A stretch of DNA of 48,277 nucleotides from Actinomycetota bacterium. Lineage in GTDB: Bacteria; Actinomycetota; Actinomycetes; Actinomycetales; Kineosporiaceae. Made by a program: the position numbers and the translations under genes. The stretch is taken from NCBI GenBank assembly GCA_030837345.1, contig JAUPKQ010000139.1:1-48277 (forward strand). The letters are read 5' to 3'. How positions within the stretch are numbered: position 1 is the stretch's first letter; each line of letters opens with the position of its first letter. Of the stretch, positions 45,931-48,277 are shown in pieces. Under the pieces are notes generated by a model that did not search any database, was not told the origin of the DNA, and saw only the letters and a program-made list of their open reading frames with translations.

Positions 45931-46869
45931 TCATCGCCCGTCCACGTCGAGGGCCAGGCCCGCCGGATCCCGCAGACCCGCCGGATCCAGCAGGGCAGTC
46001 GGATCCCGGGGGTCCGTCAGATCGAGCAGCTCGTCGAGCAGATCCCCGCCGAGGAAAGCGTCCTCCGGGACATCGTTCCCCGCAGAGACCCCGGGCAGGC
46101 TCCATGACCGCCGGTGCTGTTCGCAGGCCCCGAGTTCGGCGAGAGCGGCGAGATGATCCGGCGCCGCGTAGCCTTTGTTGTCGCACCAGCGGTACCGGGG
46201 GAAATCGGCCGACCGGGCCACCATGATCGCATCCCGTTCCACCTTGGCCAGCACGCTCGCGGCGGCGACGGCGGCGCACCGCAGGTCGGCCTTGACGAGG
46301 GTCCGGACCTCCGGCTGGCCGTGGAAGGGTTCCGTCGGGGAAGGCTCCGTGGGTCGTCCCCGCACGGCGTCCAGTTCGAACAGCGGTTCGGTGAGGAACA
46401 CCGTTGTCCCCTCGGTCTCACCGCCGCGCGGGCCCGGCGGTGTCAACCAGTCGTGGGACCCGTCGAGCAGCACGCACGGAGGCATCTCCGGCAGGGCGGT
46501 GAGGGCCCGTCGTCCGGCGAGGCGGAGCGCGCCGATGATGCCGTGGCGATCGATCTCGTCCGGCTCGGCGTGTCCGACGGCGTGCGCGGTGGCCCAGCGC
46601 CGCAACCGTGGCACGAGTGCCTGCCGCGCGGCGGGGGTCAGGAGCTTCGAGTCACGGACCCCGGACGGCGCCGCGCGCACCGAGGCGTCGACGACGACGA
46701 CTCCCACGGTGACCGGCCCCGCCAGGGCCCCTCGCCCGACCTCGTCCATCCCCGCCACGAGCCGGTTCCCGGCACGAAGGAGCTTCCGTTCCTCCCTCAA
46801 AGTCGGTATCTGCGAACGACGACCCCCCCGAGAACGCCCGGTGCCGGGCGTGACCGCCGAAGGTGTCAC
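45931..46869 (-). CDS. rnhB: Ribonuclease HII
   Basis: Cleaves RNA in RNA-DNA hybrids and removes misincorporated ribonucleotides. 312 residues. The first two catalytic acids are in [14 protein letters not shown], the third in VLLDGSHDW, the fourth region is [23 protein letters not shown] 35-residue loop rich in Pro, Thr and Glu (about 155-195, including [16 protein letters not shown]) is inserted between the third acid and the fourth region, longer than usual. C-terminus has loose [13 protein letters not shown] repeats. The GTG at 46869 overlaps the lepB stop (GTGA). Confidence 0.94.
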
Positions 46870-48277
46870 TTCTGACCGGCGGCTGGTGGATCAGGGACAC
46901 GGGCGAAGACCTCAGGCGGGCCGCTCAGCCCCGTGAAGCGGGAGAAGGGCCAGACGAGGACGAAGGCTTTCCCCACGACGTTCGCTATCGGGACCTGCCC
47001 CTGAGTCGCTTCCTTGACATGGAACCGGGAGTCGTAGGAATTGCTCCGGTTGTCGCCCAGGACCCATAGGTGATCGGGTTTGACGGTCGTGGTGAATGGA
47101 TCGTTGGAGGGTTTGACCCCCTCTTTGAGGTAGGTCTCGGTGATGGGTACTCCGTTGACGGTCAGCTTGCCCTCGGCGTCGCAACACTTGACCGTGTCTC
47201 CGGGAAGCCCGATCACGCGCTTGATCAAGTGTTGTCCGGCGTCCTGCGGCAAAAGGCCGATGAAGGTCAGCGCCGCCGTCAGCCCTCGCTGGACCGCTCC
47301 CTGCTGTTCGGTTTCCTGGTGCTCCTGCAGCCAGCCACCCGGGTCCTTGAAGACGACAACGTCGCCCCGGCTCAGCGACATCGGGCTGGGTGTCAGTTTG
47401 TTCACCAGCACCCGGTCACGGAAAGTCAGGGTGTCCTGCATGGACTCGGACGGAATGAGGAACGCCTGGATCAGGAACGTCTTGATGACCAGCGACAGGG
47501 CAAGCGCCATCCCCAGGACGACGAACACCTCCGACACGACGGACAGCACCGCCTCGGCGGGAGTCTGGGGTTCCCTCTTCTCCTCGGTCTTGCGCTCTTT
47601 CCCCTGCCGACCTGGAAGGTTCAGCCCCGTCCGGCCCCGACGAGAGGAACGGTCCTCTGTCACGGGCCCGGTCCGGGTGGGGACGGCGCCCGTCCGGGTG
47701 GGGACGGCGCCCGTCCGGGTGGCGACCGCGCCCGTCCGGGCCGAGGGGACGGCGCCGGCGGTCCGGGTGGAGATCGGACCGCTGCGCGCGGAGACGGCCC
47801 CGGTGCCGTAGCCCTTGCCGGATCCACGCTGCGAACGCCGTGGCGGGTCAGAGATCCCCGTCCAGGAGTCATCACCGCGAGGTCGGACCACCTGACGTCC
47901 GGTCGCCGTCCGCCGATCGGCGTCCTCCCGGGCGTACGGACCCCCACCGCCGGCCGCGCCGTTGCCGTTCGCCGGAGCGGACGTCTCCGCCCCGGACGAC
48001 GACCGGCCCGCGGGAGCGGCAGGAGAGCTTGTCTGTCCGTACTGCTGGTAGCCGTAGTCCTGCGCCGTACCGGCCTGCGCGGCGGCACCGGGCTGGGCGT
48101 ACCCCGCTGCGGCGGCACCGGGCTGGGCGGCACCGGGCTGTCCGTACTGCTGGTAGCCGTAGTCCTGCGCCGTACCGGCCTGCGCAGCGGCACCGGGCTG
48201 GGCGTACCCCGCTGCGGCGGCACCGGGCTGGGCGGCACCGGGCTGTCCGTACTGCTGGTAGCCGTAGTCCTGCGCCG
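46866..48277 (-). CDS. lepB: Signal peptidase I with a long repeat-rich N-terminal extension (5' end outside window)
   Basis: Cleaves Sec signal peptides at the membrane. The catalytic part is encoded at 46866-47560: a membrane helix ([20 protein letters not shown]), Ser in [12 protein letters not shown], Lys in [13 protein letters not shown] and the closing [12 protein letters not shown]. Upstream the same frame stays open to the window edge with structured repeats: seven-residue AVPTRTG units (about 47660-47745), then Tyr/Gln/Gly-rich 35-residue units (48034 on). A GTG at 47891 could start the protein, but the in-frame 105-bp repeats upstream argue for a longer N-terminus. A separate small gene upstream is the alternative. 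Confidence 0.88.
48034..48277 (-). repeat. lepB: 105-bp tandem repeat encoding a 35-residue YGQ-rich unit
   Basis: The sequence starting TGTCCGTACTGCTGG recurs at 48034, 48139 and 48244, exactly 105 bp apart, and the copies are nearly identical. 105 is a multiple of three, and in the lepB frame each unit reads [18 protein letters not shown], then a longer Ala/Gly/Gln part. The array continues past the right edge. Near-identity suggests recent expansion; copy number probably varies between strains. Confidence 0.95.

Follow-up and report, generated by a model that had tools for sequence, protein, structure and literature searches.

At one end of the 48,277-nucleotide stretch of actinomycete DNA analysed here, which we call the window, lies a gene for signal peptidase I, lepB2. 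We are highly confident that lepB2 is a single gene for an enzyme that retains its catalytic residues and bears a cytosolic tail at least 497 residues long, with a second contig of the same assembly (C30) joined to the window. Accounts of bacterial signal peptidase I usually present a lone, small membrane enzyme whose cytoplasmic end is short. In LepB2, a repeat-built tail makes up about two thirds of the chain, and the gene is coupled to a sister gene, lepB1, the product of which has no active site. A very long repeat tail beside a dead sister gene suggests that the tail might cluster or anchor secretion machinery. The locus lends itself to asking if signal-peptide cleavage is spatially organised in bacteria and if a pseudo-signal-peptidase can act as a subunit. 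Because long tails are found at lepB2 in several actinomycete families, the question is wider than one genome, and draft assemblies may conceal the trait, since such repeats can break contigs, as at C30 and at C224, the contig of the window.

The lepB2 frame and its repeats

The window is the whole of C224, one of 269 contigs in a draft assembly, and it terminates within a 105-bp repeat. On the minus strand, to which all features of the window described here belong, the LepB2 frame has no stop from 46866 to the window edge (469 codons). The catalytic domain (46869..47474) was identified by matches to PF10502 (6.7e-42, spanning residues 249–442 of the window part) and TIGR02227 (4e-39), both above cut-off. 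It is preceded by a single predicted N-terminal membrane helix (47475..47561, residues 239–267 of the window part), placed by the AF2 model and by hydropathy, which has its maximum of 2.51 at residue 246. The codons of the catalytic Ser, within the motif IPSESM (47442..47444), and of the catalytic Lys (47220..47222) fall in invariant columns of a nine-sequence LepB alignment. With the S26 domain, the Ser nucleophile, the Lys base, and the N-terminal helix all present, LepB2 fits the type I signal peptidases, in which the protease domain is located outside and the N-terminal tail inside. LepB2 breaks one trait of these enzymes, the short cytoplasmic N-terminus, with 238 residues in the window alone and at least 497 if C30 is joined. 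We take this trait to be common rather than defining, as relatives break it too. The statement of the sequence-only reading that LepB normally has a short N-terminus is right for the textbook enzymes and too general for other Actinomycetota, in which long, unrelated tails recur. The next gene, rnhB (RNase HII; 45931..46869; profile matches and frames), starts with a GTG overlapping the LepB2 TGA by 4 nt; at 12 of the 13 loci from genomes of the same family, the lepB genes are likewise followed by an rnhB frame.

The extension within the window (47562–48275) lies ahead of the predicted membrane helix. Its outermost part is a 105-bp tandem unit encoding 35 residues of Tyr/Gln/Gly/Ala character (48033..48277; TRF, 2.3 copies, 99% matches), and the two full copies in the window are unlike at 1 of 105 sites. 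Then come a Ser/Ala/Gly-rich linker (47934..48032), defined by translation and modelled by AF2 as coil with pLDDT mostly below 50, and an Arg/Thr/Gly-rich region with a basic juxtamembrane end (47562..47933), defined by composition, hydropathy, and AF2. The latter contains AVPTRTG heptads encoded by a 21-bp unit (47662..47740; TRF, 3.8 copies, 93% matches). The open frame upstream of the catalytic part with its heptads and 105-bp units, as first described in the sequence-only reading, was thereby confirmed. With C30 included, the order of the tail from the start is a Gly/Pro/Tyr head, Tyr-Pro-Gln octads, the 35-residue Tyr/Gln units (C30 and the window together show two complete and two partial copies), the linker, and the Arg/Thr/Gly region.

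The composition of the tail is extreme within the window. Among 68 coding-like frames, picked by GC3 well above GC2 and including some that are not genes, the LepB2 frame contains the densest Tyr stretch (11 per 100) and has an entropy of 2.77, below that of all the others; when the C30 part is included, the values become 14 Tyr per 100 and 2.37. The 249 residues of the C30 part include 28 Tyr, 40 Gln, 48 Gly, and 12 charged residues, and their highest 19-residue hydropathy mean is −0.01, while residues 111–240 of the window part contain 22 Arg. AF2 modelled residues 1–238 of the window part as coil, with no helix or strand before 239 and 10-residue pLDDT means of 34–50 up to residue 230. The charge–hydropathy rule assigns the two Tyr/Gln blocks to the folded class, but it depends on charge and is a poor guide for low-complexity sequence with few charges. 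The tail is most likely cytosolic and disordered, as had been proposed from the letters alone, because its complexity is low and the model shows coil up to a single N-terminal helix.

Repeat copies also bear on selection. Each of the three differences among the 105-bp copies is a synonymous change at a third codon position. When nine octads were delimited by nothing but the 24-bp period, all nine had Tyr and both Gln, each encoded by synonymous codons in a ratio of 7:2, while the other five octad positions vary in residue. This pattern lends modest support to selection on the tail protein, since the repeat copies share history and independent events are few.

The gene start and the sister gene on C30

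C30 is the second contig that ends inside a 105-bp unit, with one partial copy at its end. No contig other than C224 and C30 was found to have the unit (a first search scored 40 of 224 candidates, a second 54 of 54); a match on C243 (E 4.2e-4) was dropped since its frames looked like chance GC-rich similarity. A protein search at the default cut-off found no other carriers of the repeat in the genome, and a YGQP-like DNA pattern was not enriched there (13 matches, three of them in lepB2, versus 18 for the reversed control). The genes on C30 follow the order rplS, lepB1 (L006:5172-5873), and the start of lepB2; rplS was identified by profile matches, and rimM and trmD ahead of it represent our reading of the frames. 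The family gene order is rplS-lepB1-lepB2-rnhB.

The candidate start of lepB2 on C30 is a GTG with GGGAGGA 6 nt ahead and a 4-nt overlap (GTGA) with the stop of lepB1. The 249 codons that it opens lead into the 35-residue unit in the same frame as in the window; Pfam and NCBIfam gave no match in this 249-residue part. The in-frame NTGA overlap of 4 nt is found at 18 of 19 lepB–lepB junctions of family loci, the 19th spanning an N-run and therefore not open to judgement. In a looser count of 94 tandem lepB pairs from all families, the overlap start is the first possible start in 33. The C30 copy is unlike each full window copy at 2 of 76 sites, and no exact overlap of 20–599 nt was found between the ends of C30 and C224; the C30 copy is therefore distinct from the window copies. 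At the least spacing allowed by the repeat phase, the frame across C30 and C224 closes at exactly 728 codons. Given this join, which rests on the repeat and the gene order, with no read or long contig spanning it, we infer that LepB2 has at least 728 residues, of which at least 497 precede the membrane helix, and that the window carries up to about two thirds of lepB2. Two contig ends within the repeat fit a copy number left unresolved by the assembly.

A GTG is also present at 47891, and the repeats could belong to a separate gene or be untranslated if LepB2 started near there. By eye, however, no AGGAGG-like run exists in the 25 nt ahead of that GTG, the frame is open to the window edge, and the well-placed coupled start lies upstream on C30. 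We rejected this reading, which we regard as extremely improbable. The sequence-only reading had attributed the repeats to the LepB gene and had called for an extension of the contig to find the true start, warning that a stop or separate start just beyond the right edge would split the repeats off. Instead, the frame runs on into the coupled C30 start, so that one gene is most likely, and the GTG that opens the 249 codons on C30 is the likely true start, provided that the two contigs are joined as proposed.

LepB1 has an intact frame of 233 codons, in which the catalytic Ser is replaced by Ala and the Lys by Arg, and in the region we take to be box E, Ser is replaced by Pro and Asp by Gly. 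LepB1 keeps 49 of 62 columns that are invariant in ten other LepB1 of the family, and its 13 changed columns include all four of these active-site positions. The Ser and Lys are both kept by 185 of 188 LepB domains, LepB1 being one of the three exceptions (28 of 216 frames had been left out as short or masked). When 149 genomes of the order were searched with LepB1, 57 of 58 LepB domains at the 30 best loci have the dyad, LepB1 being the only one without it (two of 60 matches dropped as short). At L097:3899 and L132:3821, the ends of first lepB genes after rplS, Ser is kept and Lys is lost (Ala and Gly, respectively); these two group in the tree on long branches, and the grouping may be false. 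In this tree, a quick one without bootstrap, LepB1 is placed beside family LepB1 that retain the dyad (SH-aLRT 96 with G003); the loss therefore fell on the branch of its own lineage.

The domain match of LepB1 (PF10502, 1.2e-27) and its predicted structure (mean pLDDT 71.4) are still those of a signal peptidase. In a Foldseek search with the model, SipA and SpsB came first among solved folds, at modest TM-scores (E ~1e-7 to 4e-8; TM 0.45–0.49 by query). We infer that LepB1 might be a non-proteolytic partner or peptide binder and not a second enzyme. The coupled LepB1 without an active site is the new element of the locus.

Long tails among relatives

We searched 58 genomes, including the source, for LepB and found a match in 57; the sample of relatives comprised 40 stretches from 38 relatives and 79 named loci. 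As an upper bound on the N-terminus we used the distance from the stop of the detected upstream gene to the catalytic Ser; over 204 frames its median is 91 codons. Single bounds can be off, because the Ser finder caught an upstream PxxxM in some rows (e.g., PRPAM, PEGWM, PEHEM, PGQAM, and PATPM); in G004, for instance, Ser lies ~210 codons from the start rather than 170. Much longer distances were observed for a lepB following the first lepB in G001 (331 codons), G005 (439, across an N-run), G003 (169), G004 (~210), Pedococcus and L063 (227), Knoellia koreensis (199), and a Sporichthyaceae MAG (208). Values of 186–204 codons occur in some first and third lepB genes too. At L055, a lepB directly after rplS has 283 codons to Ser; this gene (end 2870) has a long low-complexity N-terminus, with 270 codons from the first start to Ser and a short GKQDS-like repeat. 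Where measurable, LepB2 of relatives has 265 to 520 codons, and the genomes taken for Kineosporia have a short LepB2 of 265–303 codons in total.

The tails of the relatives are unlike in sequence and mostly not Tyr-rich, being Pro/Ala/Arg- or Asp/Glu-rich; among their LepB2 tails, only that of the Sporichthyaceae (L118, end 4840) is clearly Tyr-rich, at 8%. Judged by these sequences, the Tyr/Gln repeats are not a conserved tail feature. Pedococcus, Knoellia koreensis, and L063 (lepB2 at L063, L120, and L127) have a common acidic tail of 160–188 residues with three similar Trp-Leu motifs (e.g., WLGWE, WLRHDL, and WLAPEL), which might mark the binding of a partner. Further long tails may be concealed by broken assemblies, because an N-run at the lepB2 tail of G005 is flanked by a repeated stretch and the contigs of G007 and G009 end near the lepB2 tail. 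At L044:2966-3021, L058:1-174, and L048:1-575, from one other genus, the lepB2 tail coincides with a repeat-flanked N-run or with contig ends. A long-tailed LepB recurs in several actinomycete families, and LepB2 described here is unusual in size and make-up. A tie between long tails and the loss of the LepB1 dyad found no support: at the long-tailed loci L039, L063, L118, L120, and L127, the first lepB retains both Ser and Lys.

A third gene, lepB3 (L007:2708-3517, contig C234), encodes an enzyme with Ser and Lys kept and a short N-terminus. LepB3 adjoins LepB2 in the tree (SH-aLRT 96), though it is on another contig. The tail is therefore not required for every LepB.

Possible roles of the tail and comparison with known systems

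The spaced Tyr residues, with Arg nearer the membrane, would let LepB2 associate with itself or with a partner under the membrane, and such association would concentrate signal-peptide cleavage at sites of secretion or growth. LepB1, with its active site lost and its predicted fold kept, would serve as a partner or peptide binder. That the tail clusters or tethers LepB2 is a tentative proposal to which we give somewhat less than an even chance. The reading as a whole, combining the anatomy of the gene with a multivalent tether and LepB1 as a non-proteolytic partner, seems to us evenly balanced between right and wrong. A stricter division of labour, with LepB1 as the signal-peptide-binding or scaffold subunit and the Tyr/Arg sticker tail of LepB2 condensing the pair and the Sec export site, is improbable in our estimate.

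The main rival supposes that the tail is a tolerated passenger, with slippage and GC-rich drift lengthening a disordered N-terminus that has no job, and that LepB1 is decaying. The 99% identity of the 105-bp copies in the window would be expected from it, as would the range of 265 to 520 codons in the LepB2 of relatives with tails of differing make-up; LepB3 has a short N-terminus, and SpsB works with a fluorescent protein at its N-terminus (PMC11898559). However, the frame, the Tyr, and the Gln are kept through synonymous change, albeit in few events, long tails recur at lepB2 in several families, and LepB1 retains an intact frame of 233 codons and 49 of 62 family-invariant columns, with the active-site residues among the 13 lost. 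We consider the passenger account doubtful, with a real minority chance of being correct.

The tail might otherwise recruit LepB2 not by self-association but by binding a specific partner, either through short motifs or through a Thr/Arg region open to phosphorylation. The AVPTRTG heptads would supply repeated Thr/Arg sites, and the tails with common Trp-Leu motifs at lepB2 in Pedococcus, Knoellia koreensis, and L063 point in the same direction, but by eye no such motif is common to the LepB2 tail and the tails of its own family, and we consider this recruitment unlikely.

FET-type prion-like domains, such as that of FUS, combine Tyr-rich low-complexity sequence with Arg as stickers. By analogy of composition, the spaced Tyr followed by Arg in the LepB2 tail resembles this pattern, with Tyr/Gln/Gly-rich repeats and an Arg-rich region in one chain. 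Up to 14 Tyr per 100, the entropy of 2.37, and the low pLDDT agree with a prion-like composition, whereas the charge–hydropathy rule disagrees for the Tyr/Gln blocks. Unlike FUS, LepB2 is bacterial and membrane-anchored, with no family match in its C30 part, and the likeness comes from composition. The long-tailed LepB2 of some genomes of the same family, of Pedococcus and Knoellia, and of the Sporichthyaceae MAG occupy the same place after the first lepB and have a long low-complexity tail; they are shorter where measurable and, the Sporichthyaceae tail apart, not clearly Tyr-rich. Our literature searches turned up no published account of a LepB with a repeat tail, a weak sign that none exists.

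LepB, SipS, and SpsB (PF10502 and TIGR02227) share with LepB2 the S26 domain, the Ser-Lys dyad, box E, and one N-terminal helix. Members of this family are described with a short cytoplasmic sequence (PMC12445088), whereas LepB2 has a tail of at least 497 residues instead. In Staphylococcus aureus, an N-terminal mCherry–SpsB fusion is reported to be functional and enriched at the septum (PMC11898559), which shows that the enzyme tolerates a large cytosolic domain at its N-terminus and that a signal peptidase can be positioned. Signal peptidase homologues without catalytic residues, as LepB1 is, have been described as well: SpsA of S. aureus, which adjoins SpsB, has two catalytic residues missing and is dispensable (PMC12445088), and SipA of Streptococcus pyogenes, without which pili are not assembled, has neither Ser nor Lys (PMC4049620). 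LepB1, with its predicted signal peptidase fold and lost dyad, belongs with this SpsA/SipA-like class by likeness and not by descent. It differs from both in having Ala and Arg at the dyad, in being coupled to a long-tailed LepB2, and in grouping, in the quick tree, with those LepB1 of its own family that keep the dyad.
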